This document shows positions 4,102 to 20,833 of a stretch of DNA of 22,396 nucleotides, in pieces. The stretch is taken from positions 1-22,396 of IMG/VR virus record IMGVR_UViG_3300007344_000283. One strand, 5' to 3'. Both the position numbers and the translations under genes were made by a program. The first letter of the stretch is position 1. The number at the start of each line of letters is the position of its first letter. The notes under the pieces are model-generated. The model was given only the letters and a program-made list of their open reading frames with translations, was not told the DNA's origin and made no database searches. Origin of the DNA: a virus.

Positions 4102-4815
4102 CTATTCGACGATCTTCACATCGTACCCGAGCAGTTTGGATACTTCTGCGACGGTCAGTTCTTTGATCTGTCCTTCCCGGTCTTTGATCTGTCCTTCAAG
4201 GACATCGATGCCGCTGATCCCGTAGAAGATATCAGGGTCGAATCCGGGGATGTCCCAGACACGCTTCCGATCTTCCGGGTCGGCCTCGTCCCACGACTTC
4301 TGGAAGGCCTCCTTGTATTCGTAGGACTTCAGGTAGCCTCCCGTTGTCTTGTATTCAGGGTGGTCCTTCTTCTCCCGGTCAGTCATGTCAGATTCCTCGA
4401 CCCACTTGGTCAGGTTGAAGTTTAGGAATTTGGGGAGATGCGCCTGAGCCCATTCGGACCGGCTGATCGTCTTGTTGAATGCCCGGATGGTGTCAGCCTT
4501 GGTCGTGTTGAAATACCCGGTCTCGGAGTTGACCGAGTTCCAGTTGCCGGTGTTCCAGTGGCCTGTGTTCCAGTGGCCTGTGTTCCAGTGGCCGGTGTTG
4601 CGGCTGCCGGTGTTGCAGTGGCCGGTGTTCAAGTTTCCGGTGTTGCGGTCCCCGGTGTTGCGGTGGCCGGTGTTCCAGTCCCCGTTGTTGTGGTTGCCGG
4701 TGTTGTAGTTCCCGTTGTTGTGGTTGCCGGTGTTGTTTTTGCGGTCAATCATTGATTGCTTCTCCGTAGCGTTCTCTGGTTTCACGGACCAGTCGTCTGT
4801 ATTGGTTAAGGCCAA
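4102..4815 (-). CDS. NTG-type pentapeptide-repeat protein with a helical C-terminal domain
   Basis: The frame is open from a TTG at 4815 (237 residues). The ATG at 4752, with GGAG nine bases upstream, is an equally good start and gives 216 residues; the residues between look protein-like, so I keep the longer form. Residues 27-104 are about sixteen pentapeptides of the xNTGx kind (for example WNTGH three times in a row), expected to form a repetitive beta structure. Residues 105-237 are charged and mostly helical, with TGGYLKSYEYKEAFQKSWDE and IPGFDPDIFYGISGID. I recall this two-part architecture from gut bacteria and their phages. Function unknown; DNA mimicry is possible but unproven. The gene is clearly richer in GC than its neighbours, which suggests transfer. 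Confidence 0.85.
   Translation of the reverse strand: MALTNTDDWSVKPENATEKQSMIDRKNNTGNHNNGNYNTGNHNNGDWNTGHRNTGDRNTGNLNTGHCNTGSRNTGHWNTGHWNTGHWNTGNWNSVNSETGYFNTTKADTIRAFNKTISRSEWAQAHLPKFLNFNLTKWVEESDMTDREKKDHPEYKTTGGYLKSYEYKEAFQKSWDEADPEDRKRVWDIPGFDPDIFYGISGIDVLEGQIKDREGQIKELTVAEVSKLLGYDVKIVE
4504..4737 (-). repeat. 15-bp tandem repeats coding NTG pentapeptides
   Basis: About sixteen degenerate 15-base units, read on the minus strand as xx-AAC-ACC-GGx-type codons, for example the near-identical block around 4546-4596. The units in the middle are most alike, which suggests recent unit duplication. Copy number is likely variable between relatives. Confidence 0.85.
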
Positions 4816-9778: not shown

Positions 9779-12304
9779 ATGGCTGTAGAAAGAAATCCGT
9801 TTGATCGCATTGAGCAGGATAATATCATTGAGATTGGTATTGGCCCTGACAGCACTGAAGTCGAAACAGGTCCGGTTAATATGGAGTTTGACGATGACGG
9901 TGGTGTGGTTATTGAATTTGGTAATTCAGATCAGGAAGGACCAGATGAAATACCTGAATATGCGATGGACGACGAAGAAGGTTTCTTCAAGAACCTTGTT
10001 GACGATCTAGACGAGGACACTCTTGAGGAAATTGCAAATCAGGTACTTGACAACTATGAAGCTGACAAAGAAAGTCGGGCTGAGTGGGAGTCAATGTTTG
10101 AGCGTGGCTTTGATCTCCTTGGTCTAAAGATTGAGGAAGCATCTGAACCATTTGAAGGTGCCTGTACTGCAGTCCATCCCCTAATCATTGAGTCAGCAGT
10201 TAAGTTCCAGTCAAAGGCAACTCAGGAGCTATTCCCTCCTGCTGGTCCTGTCAGGACACAAATTTTAGGTAAGTCAGATAAGCGGCGCGAAGAACAGGCG
10301 CAGCGCGTCAAGACATTTATGAATTACCAGTTAACTGAACAGATTCCTGAGTACTTCGATGAAACAGAGCGGATGCTGTTTAATCTTCCGCTAATTGGTT
10401 CAGCATTTAAAAAGATTTATTTTGATATTACGCTCAATAGGCCAGTCTCTGAGTTTGTGCCTATTGACCAGTTCTTCGTGTCGTACTACGCCACGGACCT
10501 GCGACGGGCAGACCGTTATACTCACTTAATCTATCGCAGTCCTATCGAACTCCAACGCTGCATTAACGCAGGAATGTATGCGGAGATCGACCTACCTACG
10601 GCTGCAGTTCCCTCTCAGACCGCAATGGCTGAGAAAATGAATACAATTCTAGGTCTTTCCCCCTCTTCACAGCATGACCCGCAGTACGTTCTTCTTGAAC
10701 AGCACTGCTATTTAGAATTGCCAACGGAACTTACTGAGGAGGATGACGGTCTCGCCCTACCCTATATCGTAACGATTGAAGAGCAGTCCCGACAGGTTTT
10801 GTCAGTTCGCAGGAACTACAATCCTAACGACCCTACCAAGCAGAAGAAAATGTTCTTCACTCATTACCGCTACGTTCCCGGCTTTGGGTTCTATGGTCTT
10901 GGACTAATCCACTTCCTTGGCAACCTTACCATGACTGCCACTGCTGCAATGAGAGCATTGGTAGATGCAGGTCAGTTCGCCAACCTTCCCGGCGGCTTCA
11001 AGCAGAAGGGTGTACGGATTGTCGGTGACAATGCTCCTATCAGCCCCGGTGAGTTTAAGGACGTTGAAGCGACGGGCGTTAATCTGCAACAGGCAATTGT
11101 GCCGCTTCCTTACAAGGAACCAAGCGCAACCCTGTTCAATATGCTTAACTTTATTTCACAAACAGGTCAGAAGTTTGCTGACACATCTGAGCAGATGGTA
11201 TCTGATGCTGCCAGTTATGGGCCGGTCGGTACAACAATGGCATTGCTTGAAGCAAGTTCAAAATTCTTTAGTGCCATTCATAAGCGTTTGCATAGGGCAC
11301 AGAAGGACGAGTTTAAACTTCTTGCAAGATTAAACTATGAGTACTTGCCGGATGAAGAAGCATATAATATTCCCGACGACACAATTACAATCTATCGCCG
11401 TGACTTTGATGGACGTGTTGATGTGGTTCCTGTCAGTGATCCTAATATTCCTTCCAACGCACATCGCATGGCACTTGCACAACTTGCGCTTAATCTTGCA
11501 CAGTCAAGTCCTCCCGGTATGTTTAACATGCAAGAGCTTAACCGTACAATCTTGTCAGCGGCAAATGTTCCTAACCTTGATAAGATTATGCCTGATAAGC
11601 CTGATCCTATTCCACTTGATCCAATGTCAGATATTCTGGCAGCAGTCAAGGGGATGCCTATTCAGGCATTTGTTGGACAGAACCACGACGCACATGTTGC
11701 AATGAAGACGGCATATATCCAAGATCCAATGAACGGTGCTAATCCTGCAATGCAAAGAATTGTTCCGGTGCTACAGGCAAACATTCAGGAACACATGATC
11801 CTCAAGTATCAGGAGCAGATTGGTGGCATGTCTGAACAGGCTGAACAACAGGCTGCAATGTCAGGTCAGTCAATTGACGAGCAGACTGCTGAAATGATTA
11901 TGGCACAGGCAGCACAACAGATTGCACAGACCAACATGATCCTTGCTAAACAGGGTATGAATATTACACCTGAACAGCAGATGGTACAGCTTGAAGGTCA
12001 GCGTCTCAATATTGAGCAGCAGAAACTTCAGGCACAGATTGCCAAGGAACAGGCTGAAGGTGCACTGAAGAATAGAGAGCTACAGCTTAAGGAGATGAAA
12101 CTTTCAGTTGATGCTTATACTCAGGGTGCAGGTGAAATTCTTAAGTCAGATGAAAAAGAAAAAGATCGTAATGCGAAGAAAGCAATGAAGGCAGTTGAAA
12201 TCTTTGCTGACCTACTACAGCAAGAAGAGAACCTGACTAATGATCGCATACTTAAGGCTGCAGATATTGTAGCTGACTTGGCAAAAGACGATACGATTGA
12301 ATAA
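9779..12304 (+). CDS. Portal protein
   Basis: An 841-residue protein forming the dodecameric ring at the capsid vertex through which DNA enters and leaves. It is assigned from its place directly after terminase and before scaffold and capsid, its size (in the range of long portals of short-tailed phages), and its composition. The N-terminus is very acidic (DEEGFFKNLVDDLDEDTLEE), a long mixed alpha/beta core follows, and the last 150 residues are Gln- and Met-rich helix (QRLNIEQQKLQAQIAKEQAE), a possible barrel or coiled coil. GGGGAAG lies before the ATG. The stop overlaps the next start (TAATGA). No frameshift is seen. Confidence 0.85.
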   Translation: MAVERNPFDRIEQDNIIEIGIGPDSTEVETGPVNMEFDDDGGVVIEFGNSDQEGPDEIPEYAMDDEEGFFKNLVDDLDEDTLEEIANQVLDNYEADKESRAEWESMFERGFDLLGLKIEEASEPFEGACTAVHPLIIESAVKFQSKATQELFPPAGPVRTQILGKSDKRREEQAQRVKTFMNYQLTEQIPEYFDETERMLFNLPLIGSAFKKIYFDITLNRPVSEFVPIDQFFVSYYATDLRRADRYTHLIYRSPIELQRCINAGMYAEIDLPTAAVPSQTAMAEKMNTILGLSPSSQHDPQYVLLEQHCYLELPTELTEEDDGLALPYIVTIEEQSRQVLSVRRNYNPNDPTKQKKMFFTHYRYVPGFGFYGLGLIHFLGNLTMTATAAMRALVDAGQFANLPGGFKQKGVRIVGDNAPISPGEFKDVEATGVNLQQAIVPLPYKEPSATLFNMLNFISQTGQKFADTSEQMVSDAASYGPVGTTMALLEASSKFFSAIHKRLHRAQKDEFKLLARLNYEYLPDEEAYNIPDDTITIYRRDFDGRVDVVPVSDPNIPSNAHRMALAQLALNLAQSSPPGMFNMQELNRTILSAANVPNLDKIMPDKPDPIPLDPMSDILAAVKGMPIQAFVGQNHDAHVAMKTAYIQDPMNGANPAMQRIVPVLQANIQEHMILKYQEQIGGMSEQAEQQAAMSGQSIDEQTAEMIMAQAAQQIAQTNMILAKQGMNITPEQQMVQLEGQRLNIEQQKLQAQIAKEQAEGALKNRELQLKEMKLSVDAYTQGAGEILKSDEKEKDRNAKKAMKAVEIFADLLQQEENLTNDRILKAADIVADLAKDDTIE

Positions 12305-12999: not shown

Positions 13000-14049
13000 A
13001 TGTCAGAAGAATGGAATGAAATTGATCTTAACCGTGCCCCACCACAAAAGGAAAAGGTTGAGTTTGAAGTAGAAGGTCAAGAAGATAATGAACCAGTGGC
13101 TGTCGCTTCAGAGCCAGTACAAATTGAGATTGAGCCGGAAACTAAACCAGATGCTAAACCTGCACAAGATGCAGAAGAAGGTTTTGAACCAGCCGAAGCA
13201 CAAGCAGATTCAGAGCTTAAAGGCGTTGAAACTAAAGGTGCACAGAAACGAATTAGGCAGCTAGTCCAGCAGCGCAAGGAACGTGAAGAACAGATTGCTG
13301 CGCTACAAAAAGAAAAGGATGATCTGCAGAAGAAACTACGTGAACAAGAAAAGGATATTGCATCTTCACTAAAGAAGAGCATTGATTCAAACGAACAGTT
13401 TCTTCAGAATAAAATTGAATATGCCAAACGAGCATATCAGCGCGCCGCAGATGAAGGTAATTCTGCTGAGATGCTTGAAGCTCAAGAGGCAATGTCCCAA
13501 GCTTATGCTGAGATGACAGGTGTTAATAGCAGCAAGAGTTCATGGGAAAAGTATAACAGTGAGATTGAACGGCAGATACAGGAAGCTGAACAGTTTCAAC
13601 AGCAGCAGAGACAGCAGCAGCAGCAACAGCCACAGTATGATCCAAAGGCTGTTGAGTGGGCAGGACAAAATGATTGGTTTGGTTCTGACAACGTAATGAC
13701 TGCAGCAGCACTTGCTCTGGATTACGAGTTAAAGAATGAAGGGTTTAATCCTTCAGACGACGAGTTTTATGGAGAGATTGATCGCCGTATGCGCGAACAG
13801 TTTCCACATAAGTTTCAGGCTGCTCCAGTCGAAGAGCAACCTGCAGTTCGTAAGTCGAGTGCGTCAAACTCGACTCAGGTGGTTGCCGGTGCGTCACGCA
13901 CACCAGCATCTCCCTCTTCTGGAAAGAAGGTCAAGCTTACGCAAGAAGATATCCGTCTTGCAAATAAGTGGGGGATTCCACTTGAACGATACGCTGAAGA
14001 GAAGCTTAAGGCTGAACGCTCTTCAGGTGAATATACCACTATTGGTTAA
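13000..14049 (+). CDS. Scaffolding protein
   Basis: A 349-residue acidic protein placed just before the head proteins. Residues 1-75 are acidic and disordered, 80-135 are a strong coiled coil (KEREEQIAALQKEKDDLQKK), 136-200 are helical, and residues 198-211 are a Gln run. Residues 213-271 have DPKAVEWAGQNDWFGSDNVM and the FYGEIDRRMREQFPHKF block, a signature of phage scaffold proteins. The C-terminus (KKVKLTQEDIRLANKWGIPL) is the basic helix that usually binds the coat protein. Scaffolds direct prohead assembly and then leave. AAAGGA precedes the ATG. The Gln run is coded mainly by CAG repeats. Confidence 0.8.
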   Translation: MSEEWNEIDLNRAPPQKEKVEFEVEGQEDNEPVAVASEPVQIEIEPETKPDAKPAQDAEEGFEPAEAQADSELKGVETKGAQKRIRQLVQQRKEREEQIAALQKEKDDLQKKLREQEKDIASSLKKSIDSNEQFLQNKIEYAKRAYQRAADEGNSAEMLEAQEAMSQAYAEMTGVNSSKSSWEKYNSEIERQIQEAEQFQQQQRQQQQQQPQYDPKAVEWAGQNDWFGSDNVMTAAALALDYELKNEGFNPSDDEFYGEIDRRMREQFPHKFQAAPVEEQPAVRKSSASNSTQVVAGASRTPASPSSGKKVKLTQEDIRLANKWGIPLERYAEEKLKAERSSGEYTTIG

Positions 14050-15220: not shown

Positions 15221-16162
15221 ATGGCTATCAATAGAGCTAGTATTGCAAAAGAACTACTTCCCGGTCTAAATGCCATCTTCGGCATTGAGTATGGCAGCGT
15301 CGATGACGAACATGCCCCACTCTTTGAGACTGAAAATTCAGATCGTGCATTTGAAGAGGAAGTCCTATTCACTGGATTCGGCACTGCCCCAACAAAGGGC
15401 GAAGGTGCTTCAGTCCAGTACGATCAGGCACAGGAAGGCTACACCGCTCGTTACACACACGAGACTGTAGCACTTGCATTTGCCATCACTGAAGAAGCAA
15501 TGGAAGACAATCTTTATGATACGTTCTCCAAGCTTCGTGCACGTGGTCTTGCCCGTGCAATGGCTAACACCAAGCAGGTCAAAGCCGCCGATGTTTTCAA
15601 CAACGGTTTCACTGGTGGTTCCTATGCAGGTGGCGACGGCGTTGCCCTATTCTCTGCTTCTCACCCAACCATTAGTGGCAACCAGTCCAACGTAATTGGT
15701 GCTTCTGATCTAAGTGAGTCTTCACTAGAAGCTGGTCTAATTTCCATCTCTAAGATTAAGGACGACCGTGGTATTCTAATCGGTGCACAGGCAGTTTCAC
15801 TGCATGTTCCAACCGATCTAGTATTTACTGCCGATCAGGTTCTTAACAGCACGATGTCAACTACAATTGGCGTTAACCCCAACAGTTCTACCGTTGGTGC
15901 AACTAACGTCAATGACATCAACAGTGTTCGTAATCAGGGTATGGTCCCCGGTGGTTTCTTCATAAACCGTCGTTTCACTGATACGAATAACTGGTTCCTT
16001 AAGACCGATGTACCTAACGGTACAAAGATGTTTGTCCGTGCACCTCTTGCTACCAAGATGGAAGAGGACTTCGACACAGGCAACCTTCGCTTCAAGGCTC
16101 GTGAGCGTTATAGCTTTGGCTGGTCTGACTGGCGCGGTTTCTTTGGCGCAAACCCAAGCTAA
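15221..16162 (+). CDS. Major capsid protein
   Basis: A 313-residue protein that forms the icosahedral shell, most likely of the HK97 fold. Motifs include LFETENSDRAFEEEVLFTGF near the N-terminus, ARYTHETVALAFAITEEAME, a SASHPTISGNQSN block near residue 148, and the C-terminal RFKARERYSFGWSDWRGFFG, typical of the end of such capsid proteins. There is no long N-terminal scaffold domain, in keeping with the separate scaffold gene. AAGGAGGG, the strongest ribosome site in the window, precedes the ATG, and a terminator-like hairpin follows at 16178. Many codons end in C, unlike the neighbouring genes, as expected for a highly expressed gene. Confidence 0.9.
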   Translation: MAINRASIAKELLPGLNAIFGIEYGSVDDEHAPLFETENSDRAFEEEVLFTGFGTAPTKGEGASVQYDQAQEGYTARYTHETVALAFAITEEAMEDNLYDTFSKLRARGLARAMANTKQVKAADVFNNGFTGGSYAGGDGVALFSASHPTISGNQSNVIGASDLSESSLEAGLISISKIKDDRGILIGAQAVSLHVPTDLVFTADQVLNSTMSTTIGVNPNSSTVGATNVNDINSVRNQGMVPGGFFINRRFTDTNNWFLKTDVPNGTKMFVRAPLATKMEEDFDTGNLRFKARERYSFGWSDWRGFFGANPS

Positions 16163-16288: not shown

Positions 16289-16594
16289 ATGGCATCAAAT
16301 ATTAGAGTAGGCTTTGTAACTGGTAGTGGCGCAGTCCTTGATACTGTGACCAGTGTTACTGTTACTGATACAAGACTTCATGCGGTACAGTCTTCAGGCG
16401 TTGGTACGTTTCTAATTACAGGAACTGAAACCGATGCCTATGGCACAGTAAACGGAAACAACATTAAGTATGTTAATACAACAGCTAATGATGTTAATGA
16501 TGTTTATCTTCCCGGTCTTGGCGTAAGAATGTATGGTTCAGTAAAAGTTTCAGCACCAACCTCTACTGCTACAACAACGGTTTTCTATGGCTAA
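16289..16594 (+). CDS. Small beta-rich head protein (101 aa)
   Basis: The ATG at 16289 is preferred because GAGGAAC lies before it; an in-frame TTG at 16277 is weaker. The 101-residue protein, MASNIRVGFVTGSGAVLDTV..., is rich in Val, Thr, Gly and Ser and has many short predicted strands, ending TATTTVFYG. Such a fold and the place right after the major capsid gene fit a head decoration or cement protein; this is inference. Its stop is inside the start of the next gene (ATGGCTAA, eight-base overlap). Confidence 0.7.
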   Translation: MASNIRVGFVTGSGAVLDTVTSVTVTDTRLHAVQSSGVGTFLITGTETDAYGTVNGNNIKYVNTTANDVNDVYLPGLGVRMYGSVKVSAPTSTATTTVFYG

Positions 16595-17243
16595 TTACAC
16601 TTACCTTGTTGGTGATATTATAGCTGCTGCAGAGGATGACTCTACAGAGTTTTATAATTATATTCCTAATATGGTTAATCGCGCTGAAGAGCGATTGACA
16701 AAAGACCTTGACGACTATGGCTTGGTCACGTATACGTCTGTTGCAGTATCTGCAGGCAATAACAAGGTAACACTTCCTTCAGGAACTCGTATTGTTAAGA
16801 ATGTAAATATTACAAGCAATGGTTCAAAGATTAATCTTCTTCAGCGTACTGATGAATTTATTAATGACTACTGGCCTGTATCAGCTTCAACGTCAGAGCC
16901 AAAGTATTACGCACGAAGAAATAACACAACAATTTTAATTGCACCAACACCTGCCTCTACAGTTAACGGTGAGATTGTTCATGTTAACAAACCTACCGCA
17001 TTAACTTCAGCAAACCAAACTAATTACTTTAGTGATTACGCATATGATCTTTTGTTCAATGCGTCAATGATTGAGGCTATGTTGTTCATGAAGAACTATT
17101 CACAAGTAGGGACTTATCAAAATGTCTACAATCAAATCTTGGATTTGCAGAGGAACCAAGCTCGTCGTACAAGGCGCGACGACATGCAGTCTCCTTTTTC
17201 TCCAGCTGGTGGCGACAATACGATCATTCCCAATGCGAATTAA
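16587..17243 (+). CDS. Head-tail adaptor-like protein
   Basis: A 218-residue protein with the order NMVNRAEERLTKDLDDYGLV, then VTLPSGTRIVKNVNI, DEFINDYWPVSASTSEPKYY, TILIAPTPAS and MLFMKNYSQVGTYQNVYNQI. The 'LPxGTRxVKNV...DYWP...PKYYA...LAPTP' arrangement is that of a widespread adaptor-type family in podovirus-like phages (similar to phage SU10 adaptors). It would attach to the portal and join the tail to the head. The last 25 residues are Arg- and Asn-rich. The ATG overlaps the preceding gene by eight bases. Assignment rests on pattern recognition. Confidence 0.6.
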   Translation: MANYTYLVGDIIAAAEDDSTEFYNYIPNMVNRAEERLTKDLDDYGLVTYTSVAVSAGNNKVTLPSGTRIVKNVNITSNGSKINLLQRTDEFINDYWPVSASTSEPKYYARRNNTTILIAPTPASTVNGEIVHVNKPTALTSANQTNYFSDYAYDLLFNASMIEAMLFMKNYSQVGTYQNVYNQILDLQRNQARRTRRDDMQSPFSPAGGDNTIIPNAN

Positions 17244-17265: not shown

Positions 17266-17961
17266 ATGGCTATTACTGCAAAAATTGCTCGTGAAATTCT
17301 TAAGTTTGCCGGTTCAAAGGGCAAGAGTGAAGCCGTAAAAAAGTACGGCGATGAAGCTGTTAAAGATGCTAAGAAGCAGATGCAGCGTGATGCACGTGAA
17401 GCTTATAAAAAGAAGGAACGTGCAAAAAAGAAAGCTGCTAAAGCTGCTTCAGCCCCACTAAAAACTCCTACTGGTACACGCAAAGCACGTAAAATTTCAC
17501 CTAAAACGCCAAAGGCTAAACAGCGTGAAAATCTTCAAAAAGCTATGCGTGAACGTCCTGAAGATGCAGAGACAATGGTCATAGGTTCACGTGAACGAGG
17601 TAAGGTTGTTAAGAAAGAAGGCATGACCCGCAAACGTGCACGTGATATGATTTCTAAACAAGAGAATGAAACAGGTGAAGAGTTTATGCGCCGCATGGGA
17701 CGTGAAGCTGAACAGACTGGTGTAGGCACTGGTCGTAGATTTAGTGAAGATGATCCCGGTTACGCTCGTGAGCAGATTCAAGACATGATGCGTGGTGACT
17801 ATCCTTCAGGTGAGGAAACAACTAAAGACGTTCTTGAGATGATGGGAGAAAGTATTGGTGGCCGCAAAAAAGGCGGCAAGGTAGCCAAGAAATCTTCTAG
17901 ACCTCATGGTGTTGGCATGGCTCTTCGTGGTTATGGCAGAGCAATGAAAGGTACAAAGTAA
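17266..17961 (+). CDS. Very basic protein with the GGKV...RGYGRAMKG tail, paralogue 1 (231 aa)
   Basis: A 231-residue protein packed with Lys and Arg. Residues 1-60 are a helix (MAITAKIAREILKFAGSKGK, then KKKERAKKKAAKAASAP), and the middle has PKTPKAKQRENLQKAMRE. The end is KKGGKVAKKSSRPHGVGMAL followed by RGYGRAMKG. The same end is found in the next two genes, so the three look like one family with very different bodies. Lys-rich, histone-like sequence suggests DNA binding; a role in DNA condensation or ejection in the virion is inference. AGGAG lies before the ATG; the stop overlaps the next start (TAATG). Confidence 0.75.
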   Translation: MAITAKIAREILKFAGSKGKSEAVKKYGDEAVKDAKKQMQRDAREAYKKKERAKKKAAKAASAPLKTPTGTRKARKISPKTPKAKQRENLQKAMRERPEDAETMVIGSRERGKVVKKEGMTRKRARDMISKQENETGEEFMRRMGREAEQTGVGTGRRFSEDDPGYAREQIQDMMRGDYPSGEETTKDVLEMMGESIGGRKKGGKVAKKSSRPHGVGMALRGYGRAMKGTK

Positions 17962-18272
17962 TGAAAAAGACAAAACGTAATTATGCAAAGGGTGGGCTTC
18001 TTTCTTACCTTTCACCTGCATATGCTGCATCAAAAGGTGGTGTTGAAAATGTACTATCTGCATTTAGCCCTGTTTACATGTTTGGTAAAAAATTTTCCGA
18101 GTCAGGTGAAAAAGAACCTGAAGTTATTAACATGACCAAGAGTAAAGATTTTAAAATTGGTGATGAATTTAATACAACTGGTAAGTTTAAAAAAGGTGGT
18201 AAGGTTGGTAAGCCCCGTGGTTGTGGTGCTGCACAACGTGGTTATGGTAGAGCAATGAAAGGTTCAAAATAA
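17961..18272 (+). CDS. Basic protein with the GGKV...RGYGRAMKG tail, paralogue 2 (103 aa)
   Basis: A 103-residue protein, MKKTKRNYAKGGLLSYLSPA, then YAASKGGVENVLSAFSPVYM and a DKxGDEF-like middle, ending with KKGGKVGKPRGCGAAQRGYG and RAMKGSK. It is the shortest of the three. The KGGLLSYLSPAYAASKGGVE part is hydrophobic enough to be a surface helix but not a clear membrane span. It is coupled to both neighbours by TAATG. No domain of known function; it is probably a minor virion or DNA-associated protein, as judged from the shared tail. Confidence 0.75.
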   Translation: MKKTKRNYAKGGLLSYLSPAYAASKGGVENVLSAFSPVYMFGKKFSESGEKEPEVINMTKSKDFKIGDEFNTTGKFKKGGKVGKPRGCGAAQRGYGRAMKGSK

Positions 18273-18991
18273 TGGTTAAAAAACTTGCCTTGTCTTTAGT
18301 TAAAAGACGACTTTTAAATCGACCTAAAAACACGCCAAAGCCTGAAGAAAAAAAGCCTCGTCAGGTTTCAGAACCCGAAGGTGCACGTCTTGATCCTGAA
18401 ACTGGTGGATCAGCAAATGTAGGTCGTGAAGTTGAAGGTCGTCGCGTTCAAGGACAGGAAAAAATTACCAGAGGTAGAAAGTCTGTTGTTGGTGGTATTG
18501 TTGAGGAAAGCACAAGTAAGGTTGCTAAAGCTAGAGCAAAAACAAAAGTTGAGCTTGAAGCACTTGTTCGTAAAGGAAAAGCTACTCCAGAACAAAAGAG
18601 TCGTCTTAAAGCAATGGAATCTAAAGATGTTGCAGATACTTCACGGGCTGCAAGAACTGCTGCTGCCACTAGAAGAGCTAATGCATCAAAAACAGCAGGT
18701 ACAGATAAGCGTGATCCACGTGATGTTTTCATTCAGACAGGTGAGATTATGGAAGGGTATAATCCAACTCAAGGAGAAATTAGTCAAGCCTTATCTAATC
18801 TTCAGGCCAGACAAACAAGTCCAAAACTAAGAGAAAGAATGGCTATTCTTGAAAAGAAAGCTACAGGTGCTAAAACACTTGGCAAAAAAAGTGGTGGTTC
18901 TATGAAAAAGAAAGGCTATAAGTCTGGAGGTTCAGTTTCTAAACCACGTGGTGTAGGCTGTGCCATGCGTGGTTATGGAAAAGCAATGTAA
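18272..18991 (+). CDS. Basic protein with the GGSV...RGYGKAM tail, paralogue 3 (239 aa)
   Basis: A 239-residue protein, MVKKLALSLVKRRLLNRPKN at the start, with a long Lys/Arg/Thr-rich body including KARAKTKVELEALVRKGKAT and ARTAAATRRANASKTAGTDK. It ends GGSVSKPRGVGCAMRGYGKA-M. The tail matches the two genes upstream. The N-terminus is an amphipathic helix. The low-complexity body may be disordered or coiled. The start overlaps the preceding stop (TAATGG). The protein is strongly basic and probably binds nucleic acid; no known function. Confidence 0.75.
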   Translation: MVKKLALSLVKRRLLNRPKNTPKPEEKKPRQVSEPEGARLDPETGGSANVGREVEGRRVQGQEKITRGRKSVVGGIVEESTSKVAKARAKTKVELEALVRKGKATPEQKSRLKAMESKDVADTSRAARTAAATRRANASKTAGTDKRDPRDVFIQTGEIMEGYNPTQGEISQALSNLQARQTSPKLRERMAILEKKATGAKTLGKKSGGSMKKKGYKSGGSVSKPRGVGCAMRGYGKAM

Positions 18992-18994
18992 CTA

Positions 18995-19165
18995 ATGCCT
19001 CTTAAAAAAGGTACAAGTAAAAAAACAATTAGTGCAAACATTCGTAAATTAAAAAAGGAAGGATATCCTCCAAAACAACGAGTGGCAATTGCACTAAGCA
19101 GCGCAGGTAAGAGTAAACCAAAAGGGAAGAAACGTGGCAGGGTATACAAAACCAAAACTGCGTGA
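18995..19165 (+). CDS. Tiny basic phage protein of the [13 protein letters not shown] family (56 aa)
   Basis: A 56-residue protein beginning [20 protein letters not shown], then [20 protein letters not shown], and ending in Lys/Arg. The 'SKKTISxNIxxLxxEGYPxKQxVAIALSxAGKS' pattern is a very frequent small family in marine phages and their metagenomic relatives. Its function is not known to me; the short helical core with a basic tail would suit a DNA- or RNA-binding role. It starts three bases after the preceding stop, and its last 32 bases overlap the next gene, whose ribosome site AAGGGAAG lies in it. Confidence 0.75.
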
Positions 19166-19541
19166 GCGGATTAAGAATGAAGTAATGGCAAGTAGCAAGG
19201 GCGGTAAAGCTGGTCAGTGGTCAGCACGTAAAGCCCAGCTACTTGCACAGCGTTACAAAGCTGCAGGTGGTGGTTATACTGGTGGTAAATCTAAAACACA
19301 AAAGTCTCTTTCATCTTGGACCAAACAGAAGTGGCGTACTAAATCTGGTAAGCCTTCAACTCAAGGACCAAAGGCAACTGGTGAAAGATACCTTCCTGAA
19401 AAAGCAATTAAGAAATTAAGTTCTTCAGAATATGCTGCAACGACTAAGGCAAAACGGGCTGGTACTAAACAAGGGAAACAGTTTGTAAAGCAACCAAAGA
19501 CTGTAGCAAAGAAAGTAAAGCCATACAGGAGAAAAGCATAA
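19134..19541 (+). CDS. DUF5872-like basic protein (135 aa)
   Basis: A 135-residue protein starting at a GTG (19134) with AAGGGAAG just before it. It has [20 protein letters not shown], then [20 protein letters not shown] and [17 protein letters not shown], then [20 protein letters not shown]. That order is the DUF5872 pattern, known from phages, giant viruses and bacteria and without a proven function. The C-terminus is Lys-rich ([17 protein letters not shown]). It lies in the cassette of small basic proteins, and its stop overlaps the next start (TAATGG). Confidence 0.8.
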
Positions 19542-19888
19542 TGGCTCTTAGTGATTCAGAAAAGGCAAAGCTAAAGCGTTATGGTTTGTCAGGTCTTAAT
19601 AAACCAAAGAAGACACCAAGCCATCCTACAAAGAAAGGCGTAGTAGCCGTTCGTACAGGTTCTGGCAATGTAAAGGTAATTCGCTTTGGTGCACAGAGCA
19701 TGGGTCACAACTATTCTCCTGAAGCACGTAAGTCATTTAAATCACGCCATGCAAAGAACATTGCACGTGGTAAGGAAAGTCCTGCATACTGGGCAGATAA
19801 GTTTTTTTGGGCTGGTCCGGATGGATCAAAGAAGATGCCGCCTAAGTCACAGAAACTAGTTCGTGGTATTAAACGTAGAGGAAAGTAA
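19541..19888 (+). CDS. Conserved basic phage protein with SRHAKNI...YWADK motif (115 aa)
   Basis: A 115-residue basic protein, [20 protein letters not shown], with the core GNVKVIRFGAQSMGHNYSPE and then KSFKSRHAKNIARGKESPAY followed by WADKFFW. The RFG...ARKSFK.RHAKNI..GK..AAYWADK order is a recurrent phage family, often near DUF5872-like genes as here, function unknown. The last 20 residues are Lys/Arg-rich (PKSQKLVRGIKRRGK). Translation is coupled to the gene before by TAATGG, and the next small start lies two bases after its stop. Confidence 0.75.
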   Translation: MALSDSEKAKLKRYGLSGLNKPKKTPSHPTKKGVVAVRTGSGNVKVIRFGAQSMGHNYSPEARKSFKSRHAKNIARGKESPAYWADKFFWAGPDGSKKMPPKSQKLVRGIKRRGK

Positions 19889-19889
19889 G

Positions 19890-19985
19890 ATGGCAATAGG
19901 TAGATCAAGTATTGCCCAGCAGGTTTCAAAACCCGGAACCAAAAAGAAACCAAAGAAAGGAAAACGTAATGGCAAAGGTAACTGA
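19890..19985 (+). CDS. Tiny protein MAIGRSSIAQQVSK (31 aa)
   Basis: A 31-residue protein, MAIGRSSIAQQVSKPGTKKK, ending PKKGKRNGKGN. It has GGAAAG close before its ATG, starts two bases after the preceding stop, and overlaps the next start by 17 bases. The M(A/P)IGRSSI.QQ.SKP start is a form I have met in tiny phage proteins encoded in the same kind of cassette, which makes it more than a chance frame. It is mostly unstructured and basic. Confidence 0.6.
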   Translation: MAIGRSSIAQQVSKPGTKKKPKKGKRNGKGN

Positions 19986-20145
19986 GTATACTTCAAAGTT
20001 TTATGTTGGTGCCTTCAATGATCCAAAGGATGTCTTTGAGTCAACTGGCAAACCAACTGGTCAGGGCTTTGGTGCAGCACGTAAAGGCCCACAAGTAACT
20101 GGCAAACAAGTAAATCTAAAAGACAACTCATCTTCTTCTGACTAA
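19969..20145 (+). CDS. Small phage protein (58 aa)
   Basis: The ATG at 19969 (MAKVTEYTSKFYVGAFNDPK) is chosen because AAAGGA precedes it; the frame is open further to an ATG at 19912, but that part lies within the preceding genes. The 58 residues are polar with a G-rich middle (TGKPTGQGFGAARKGPQVTG) and a Ser/Asp end. There is no membrane segment or cysteine. It is the last gene of the small-protein cassette and less basic than the others. Function unknown. Confidence 0.65.
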   Translation: MAKVTEYTSKFYVGAFNDPKDVFESTGKPTGQGFGAARKGPQVTGKQVNLKDNSSSSD

Positions 20146-20158
20146 GAAAGTTTAACCT

Positions 20159-20833
20159 ATGGCAACGTCAGGAACATTTAACTTCTCAATGGATATTGAC
20201 GAAGTTATCCAAGAAGCAACTGAGATGATTGGTGGGGAGGAGACGCTAGGTCATGAGCCTAAGTCTGCTCGTCGTTCAATTAACCTGTTGCTACAAGATT
20301 GGCAGAACCGTGGCGTTTTGCTATGGACTGCTGATACTACAACGGTTTCAGTATCTACTAGCGTAACAGCATATGATCTAGGCTCAACAGTTGTAGATGT
20401 TCTTGAGGTCGTTGTTAATAGAGATGAAACCGATTTACAGCTTGAACGCATCTCAATGGAGGAGTATCTACGTCTTCCACGTAAGGGGCAGACAGGCAGA
20501 CCCTCACAATATGCAGTTCGTAGAGGACAGGCAGGGGTAACAGTATATCTGTGGCCTATTCCTGAAAATACCACTGATCTTTTGAAACTTGAAAAAGTGA
20601 GGTACATGGAAGATGTTAATAAATCTGCAATACAGACTGCTGATATTTCCAGAAGGTTTTTACCATGTCTTGCCGCTGGTTTGGCATATCAACTATCTAT
20701 GAAACGTCCCGGTGTTGAAGGTGGTCGTATTCAGTTTCTTAAAGAAGAGTATGAAGAACGTCTTGCAAGGGCAATGTCTGAAGATCGTGAAAGAGCAAGT
20801 TATTATTTGAAACCACGACTAAATAGAGTATAA
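20159..20833 (+). CDS. Probable head-tail connector or neck protein
   Basis: A 224-residue protein, FNFSMDIDEVIQEATEMIGG at the start, then ARRSINLLLQDWQNRGVLLW, PSQYAVRRGQAGVTVYLWPI and KRPGVEGGRIQFLKEEYEER. The 'ARRSxNLLLxDWxNRGxxLW' pattern is a widespread phage family located near tail genes and thought to be a connector, neck or tail-completion protein. Here it follows the small basic cassette and precedes the fibre gene, consistent with that. The ribosome site is weak (GAAAG). There is no membrane segment. Assignment is from pattern memory. Confidence 0.6.
   Translation: MATSGTFNFSMDIDEVIQEATEMIGGEETLGHEPKSARRSINLLLQDWQNRGVLLWTADTTTVSVSTSVTAYDLGSTVVDVLEVVVNRDETDLQLERISMEEYLRLPRKGQTGRPSQYAVRRGQAGVTVYLWPIPENTTDLLKLEKVRYMEDVNKSAIQTADISRRFLPCLAAGLAYQLSMKRPGVEGGRIQFLKEEYEERLARAMSEDRERASYYLKPRLNRV

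Follow-up and report, generated by a model that had tools for sequence, protein, structure and literature searches.

The internal proteins of phage T4 vary among relatives, and encapsulins use C-terminal cargo-loading peptides to load diverse cargo into a shell of the HK97 fold. According to a source on T4, the basic internal proteins of this phage carry an N-terminal targeting sequence (PMC9026906), and a source on phage P1 describes the first 30 residues of DarB as directing a reporter into virions (PMC9024508). For ejection proteins, mosaic exchange of domains and peptidoglycan-active domains are reported in two further sources (PMC8954989, PMC9509320).

The window analysed here is a linear virus record of 22,396 bases, from a group of phages related to marine Pelagibacter phages, with a head module in its right half. 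The module runs in the order terminase, portal, GroES-like gene, scaffold-like gene, capsid protein, SU10-type adaptor, A, B and C, followed 3' of C by three small untailed genes, one further small gene and a second adaptor. Its capsid protein is 52-54% identical to those of the closest named phages (DSL-LC04, 023Pt_psg01, HTVC023P and HTVC027P of Pelagibacter, Pag-Yong1 of Planktothrix, and CRP-901 and CRP-902 of Roseobacter). On the minus strand, the window also holds a protein with many NTGxxNTG-type repeats (4102-4815) and, at 1039-2168, a thymidylate synthase (ThyX)-like gene and a deoxycytidylate-deaminase-like gene, both named by eye. The features used below are the following.

9779 to 12304, plus strand: portal (phrog_1216), a candidate partner of the tail
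13000 to 14049, plus strand: acidic coiled-coil-like protein (phrog_28737), scaffold-like by position, a candidate partner of the tail
15221 to 16162, plus strand: major capsid protein (phrog_371, PF25209), a candidate partner of the tail
16587 to 17243, plus strand: SU10-type adaptor gene (PF24175, E = 1.9e-21), upstream border of the tailed stretch
17266 to 17961, plus strand: gene A, 231 aa, basic body, 61 K/R and 33 D/E
17872 to 17958, plus strand: tail of A, core at 17908-17946
17961 to 18272, plus strand: gene B, 103 aa, 22 K/R and 8 D/E
18195 to 18269, plus strand: tail of B, core at 18219-18257
18272 to 18991, plus strand: gene C, 239 aa, 56 K/R and 25 D/E
18287 to 18851, plus strand: part of the C body that shows no DNA similarity to the relatives L016, L018, L019 and L112
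18926 to 18988, plus strand: tail of C, core at 18950-18988
18995 to 19888, plus strand: three small untailed genes, also basic (phrog_2423; phrog_14910/phrog_17747, with a weak DUF5872 match; phrog_7595)
19912 to 20145, plus strand: small gene with an internal core look-alike, GQGFGAARKGP (from 20065)
20159 to 20833, plus strand: second SU10-type adaptor gene (PF24175, E = 8.7e-11), downstream border

The C-terminal tails of A (KKGGKVAKKSSRPHGVGMALRGYGRAMKGTK), B (KKGGKVGKPRGCGAAQRGYGRAMKGSK) and C (KSGGSVSKPRGVGCAMRGYGKAM) and the three bodies were compared by local alignment against 300 shuffles. The tails align with z = 13.7 (A-B), 12.4 (A-C) and 12.4 (B-C), whereas the bodies do not align (z = 0.5, -1.5 and -1.7 for the same three pairs), which confirms the claim of a first-pass annotation that one tail sits on three adjacent genes with differing bodies and speaks against full-length paralogues, as does the lack of body similarity at E ≤ 0.01 in 130 of 132 pairs of tailed proteins encoded on one locus. 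The consensus given in that annotation captures a real shared tail; as an exact string it does not fit all three genes, because the spacing from GG.V to P.G is unequal and longer in A. The TAATG coupling it described joins A to B and B to C; TAACTAATG comes after C. A six-frame translation of the window contains four copies of the core G.G.A.[RK]G, namely the three tails and the one in the 19912-20145 gene. Each pair of 13-codon cores shares 6-7 identical codons and has 3 synonymous and 3-4 non-synonymous differences. By eye, KGTK in A and KGSK in B, which follow the core, are coded by AAAGG right before the next ATG (17944-17963 and 18255-18274); to judge from the DNA, the tail end of A and B may double as the ribosome-binding site of the next gene.

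In other phages, the motif is RGxGxAx(R/K)G at the C-terminus with a variable end. A DNA pattern for G.G.A.RGYG(R/K)AM that is blind to position in the gene matched at least 119 stretches. Among the matches listed, 196 are in frame (with doubly fetched loci counted both times); of these, 195 lie 0-19 residues before the stop, and the remaining one belongs to an ORF truncated where its contig ends; these matches represent 145 different proteins, and 143 tailed bodies fall into 42 clusters at E < 1e-5. A second pattern, for the KF form RG.GAA.(R/K)G.KF, matched at least 120 stretches; among the matches listed, 108 of 110 in frame lie at most 15 residues from the end and the other two at 17, the distance to the C-terminus is most often exactly 4 residues, and the carriers are proteins of 35-352 residues. 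HTVC023P gp32 and gp51 terminate in the KF form. On this evidence, two expectations of the first-pass annotation are borne out among the matches listed: the carriers, which are basic, have unrelated bodies, and the tail is kept at the C-terminus in relatives. The core glycine codons are GGT, GGC, GGA and GGG in 390, 252, 138 and 16 cases; third codon bases thus vary, and conservation is therefore at the protein level. Tails on unrelated bodies are more alike within a genome than between genomes (0.48 vs. 0.38; 2 of 2000 permutations as high), a pattern that fits either a shared binding partner or exchange at the tail DNA. In small proteins of L203, L206 and L223 (MAGKGMGCATRGGGAVESGP and similar) the core lies near the N-terminus.

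Searches of sequence collections and literature returned little. The sole match in the bacterial genome collection was a phage-like contig with head genes (L136, PACT01000004.1), filed in a Crocinitomicaceae MAG. In the phage collection, full-length tblastn gave no match for A or C and two chance-level matches for B; short tail queries returned four matches, at E = 9, and two other tail queries and one 64-residue tailed protein gave none. A tail match in Anabaena phage A-1(L) was judged to be chance, since it lies inside A1L_62 and not at its end. Clustering by tails alone merged 855 of 1596 into a single group at a threshold that was too lax, and these counts were not used. A literature search on C-terminal capsid signals and on the motif yielded, among the papers listed, no account of the tail.

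Tailed genes belong to head-gene clusters. Among the matches listed, 98 of 104 loci with the YG(R/K)AM form and 117 of 118 with the KF form contain genes homologous to head genes from the window or from isolates. Tailed genes lie either 3' of the first adaptor, as in the window, or between terminase and portal; terL and portal are also among their neighbours, and the KF form, by reading of the tables, is often near the portal gene. For a sample that is blind to the tail, we used loci fetched by the adaptor protein (16587-17243), the best 80 of 290 corresponding to 68 distinct loci. In these 68 loci from the best 80 of 290, none of the 376 ORFs upstream of the adaptor carries the tail, compared with 83 of 325 ORFs within 2.5 kb downstream of it. 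Where at least 1.2 kb follows the adaptor (52 loci, same best 80 of 290), at least one tailed ORF is found in 38 loci and at least two in 24; 14 loci lack the tail, of which 11 have an ORF ending in NRLY and 3 have neither, NRLY-ending ORFs being present in 26 of the 52. A capsid-fetched set, in which the motif is rarer, gave any core match in 20 of 80 loci (27 ORFs) and the strict form in 2, counts that take in internal and N-terminal core matches and come from contigs many of which are short; all 27 core-bearing ORFs are on the coding strand of the module. Seven of nine isolate stretches are without the tail. Homologues of the 19912-20145 gene are kept in relatives, being present in 23 of 104 tailed loci among the matches listed.

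The bodies in front of these tails are basic, with K+R at 24% (n = 151) and 22% (n = 52) vs. 13% in 3855 other ORFs, and most of them match no family. Pfam searches of 59 representatives of the YG(R/K)AM form identified LysM in 2, and those of 77 representatives of the KF form identified LysM in 4, DUF6496 in 2 and EF-hand-like domains in 2. Of 267 tailed ORFs, 9 contain a LysM-like motif, compared with 5 of 3855 others; a comparison restricted to basic ORFs 150-600 aa long (9 of 141 tailed vs. 5 of 132 other) shows no significant excess, and the five untailed LysM-like ORFs end, by eye, in related or other recurrent tails. EF-hand-like loops were counted in 10 of 267 tailed vs. 6 of 3855 other ORFs. 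One portable loop of this kind, FPDLTGDGKVTQKDIL.GRGV, occurs with either tail form (L263, L293, L313, L030, L059 and others). The look of some sequences had suggested membrane insertion, a reading rejected since membrane-like stretches are not enriched (9 of 151 vs. 31 of 509). Profile searches of the representatives recognised no body as an effector: the models of defence systems gave DzbB alone, as a weak match in 2 of 59 representatives, and NCBIfam gave 16 families for the 59, many of them LysM or cell-wall families and the rest single weak or low-complexity matches, which include one, in 1 of 59, to the putative toxin family SAR2788. The predicted model of A has a mean pLDDT of 59, with good confidence for helices at 5-62, values below 50 for the tail and low confidence for the rest, and that of B has a mean of 53; low-confidence models of this kind fit a flexible end peptide, without proving it. 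A PDB sequence search with the A and B families was empty.

The strongest feature of the locus, and one absent from the first-pass annotation, is that bodies are swapped between close relatives while the tail stays. The flanks of gene C in L016, L018, L019 and L112 are 89-96% identical to the window; similarity stops at 18274-18286 and resumes at 18852-18928, where the tail begins or shortly upstream of it. Gene B of L007 likewise has a replaced body, from about 17951 to 18149, and both L007 and L009 have an extra tailed gene inserted at the tail of C. We counted such exchanges in the tail-blind set (best 80 of 290) in pairs of genes whose two 300-nt flanks were both at least 85% identical. 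In this set of the best 80 of 290, the body was replaced in 50 of 188 pairs of tailed genes (21 of 51 genes) and in 32 of 83 pairs of NRLY genes (7 of 14 genes), compared with 2 of 2509 pairs of all untailed genes (2 of 452 genes). A recount separating place from tail and restricted to genes at most 3.5 kb downstream of the adaptor gave 2 of 497 replaced pairs for untailed genes of the same stretch, made up of 0 of 303 for basic and 2 of 194 for other genes (best 80 of 290). The replacements (best 80 of 290) end in an RGxGxAx(R/K)G-type tail in 43 of 50 cases, in NRLY in 2 and in neither in 5. The exchanged segment begins at the start codon and ends inside the tail or shortly ahead of it, the median junctions lying 3 nt after the ATG on the left and 80 nt before the stop on the right, and the core is within the shared DNA in 41 of 55 exchanges and outside it in 14. 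Since exchange pairs share loci and are not independent, the result is to be taken as a contrast and not as an exact rate. A larger test, with loci partly fetched by the tail, gave replacements in 33 of 120 tailed vs. 30 of 803 untailed pairs, and a figure of 33 tailed out of 33 replacements that is biased by the tail-based fetch; we prefer the tail-blind test because the loci of the larger one were partly chosen by the tail. An exchange hot spot of this kind suggests a selective pressure for change in the bodies, which would be expected of proteins that encounter host defences, and suggests that any action of theirs in the host would change often.

One terminal motif, its C-terminal place, unrelated bodies, a position in the head cluster and exchange of bodies with the tail kept are thus the observed properties of this gene class, and a conserved end peptide on freely varying bodies, encoded in a head cluster, is the picture expected of a loading signal. 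By analogy with the T4 capsid targeting sequence (CTS), we give an even chance to the reading that the tail serves as a C-terminal signal by which exchangeable internal proteins are loaded into the capsid; the location of these proteins would be the virion. Under such a scheme, the short linear signal would direct diverse small basic proteins to a single site in the nascent head, where a head protein (portal, scaffold-like or capsid) would bind the tail; the tailed proteins would be packed inside the particle, would probably enter the host along with the DNA and would act there through their bodies, and the tail would apparently stay uncut, unlike the T4 CTS. The bodies would be free to change because the tail alone would suffice for loading, and recombination between start-codon regions and tail-coding DNA would swap whole bodies, so that close relatives may carry different cargo behind the same label. 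Several observations count against a loading signal: the tail is missing in 14 of 52 adaptor-fetched loci (best 80 of 290) and in 7 of 9 isolate stretches, the core is found in only 20 of 80 capsid-fetched loci, cores are N-terminal in at least three loci (L203, L206 and L223), the LysM excess is lost among basic ORFs, membrane-like stretches are not enriched, SU10 gp20-24 are without the tail and no body is recognised as an effector.

Gly/Arg-rich tails might instead bind nucleic acid and coat the packaged DNA, in which case condensing proteins would ride into the head without a protein receptor. Bodies and tails are indeed basic, with RG and PRG steps, and so are the neighbours at 18995-19888; however, the untailed basic genes alongside are not exchanged (0 of 303 pairs, best 80 of 290), and basicity alone therefore does not define the class. 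Mere charge would also need neither the exact spacing, the uncharged residues nor the set distance from the C-terminus that are kept, and NRLY, which ends the same kind of protein, is hardly a DNA-binding peptide, so that we regard this explanation as unlikely. A further explanation is an anchor on the outside of the particle, at its tail, adaptor or shell, with LysM and calcium-loop bodies that hold or cross the cell wall. The LysM-like motifs (9 of 267 tailed ORFs), the EF-hand-like loops (10 of 267 vs. 6 of 3855) and the place of the tailed genes between two adaptor genes would suit such an anchor, but most bodies are basic, have low predicted order (pLDDT of 59 for A and 53 for B) and contain no recognised cell-surface domain, and tailed genes adjoin terL and portal as well; we consider it quite unlikely.

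A role without any binding is conceivable if the tail DNA were kept as a homology arm for recombination among neighbouring genes, which would agree with exchange junctions at or near the tail DNA and with the greater likeness of tails within a genome (0.48 vs. 0.38, permutation 2 of 2000). The residues, however, stay while third bases vary, the left junction is at the start codon, where no tail is needed, the tail is at the protein C-terminus whatever gene comes next, and the core is also found in phages that have diverged too far for their DNA to pair, all of which makes this explanation very unlikely. The first-pass annotation had also offered the tail as a protease tag, that is, a recognition site of a prohead protease. 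A glycine pair, GG, precedes the core; no protease domain was found in the nine head genes of the window, which is a genome fragment, and the capsid protein matches phrog_4523 and phrog_133 over their capsid part only, leaving this proposal extremely improbable.

Other C-termini recur as well. CSHNRLY or CQNRLYM ends small basic proteins 3' of the adaptor (L377, L378, L390 and others), twice per genome in some loci. An FVASxY(D)-like C-terminus was seen at L163:9683-10362, L153:5328-6278 and L157:5442-5600 and in L029, two adjacent genes of L163 sharing this end, and SLDYYKDIM or SLNNYYKGM ends proteins of at least two families (L137, L260, L288, L291, L296 and L308); L137:19361-19726, with an end of the SLDYYKDIM type, corresponds to HTVC023P gp53. 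A broader and doubtful, though conceivable, proposal is that this lineage of short-tailed phages has a limited set of C-terminal labels (RGxGxAxRG in versions that differ at the end, NRLY, FVASxYD-like and SLxYYKDM-like), which would assign exchangeable proteins to set places in the virion, the label DNA serving as the joint for swaps. If so, a phage population would renew its injected proteins with the assembly line unchanged. Many small head-module genes of these phages are unnamed, and a true loading signal would let a single motif assign an entire class of them to the virion cargo, would single out proteins active during the first minutes of infection and would provide a handle for packing chosen proteins into such particles.

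Among known systems, the ejection proteins of SU10, T7 and P22 resemble the genes described here in being different proteins beside head genes, and also in mosaic domain exchange and peptidoglycan-active domains (PMC8954989, PMC9509320). SU10 gp20-24, read by eye, have no such tail, and their K+R content is 3-16%. The likeness to encapsulins is one of analogy, and encapsulins differ in that they are not phage virions. P1 DarB is similar in the role proposed for the tail, a terminal peptide sending a protein into the head; its signal is N-terminal, and the Dar proteins are reported to be without a consensus (PMC9024508), whereas here the consensus is plain. The closest parallel is the CTS of T4 IPI, IPII and IPIII, which, as here, is a short terminal peptide common to several otherwise different small basic proteins of one phage. 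The T4 CTS is N-terminal, comprises about 10 residues and is removed by the gp21 protease, whereas the tail described here is C-terminal, with only few N-terminal cores, is unrelated in sequence and is accompanied by no protease domain in the nine head genes. By this analogy, the tail would be a C-terminal counterpart of the T4 loading signal.
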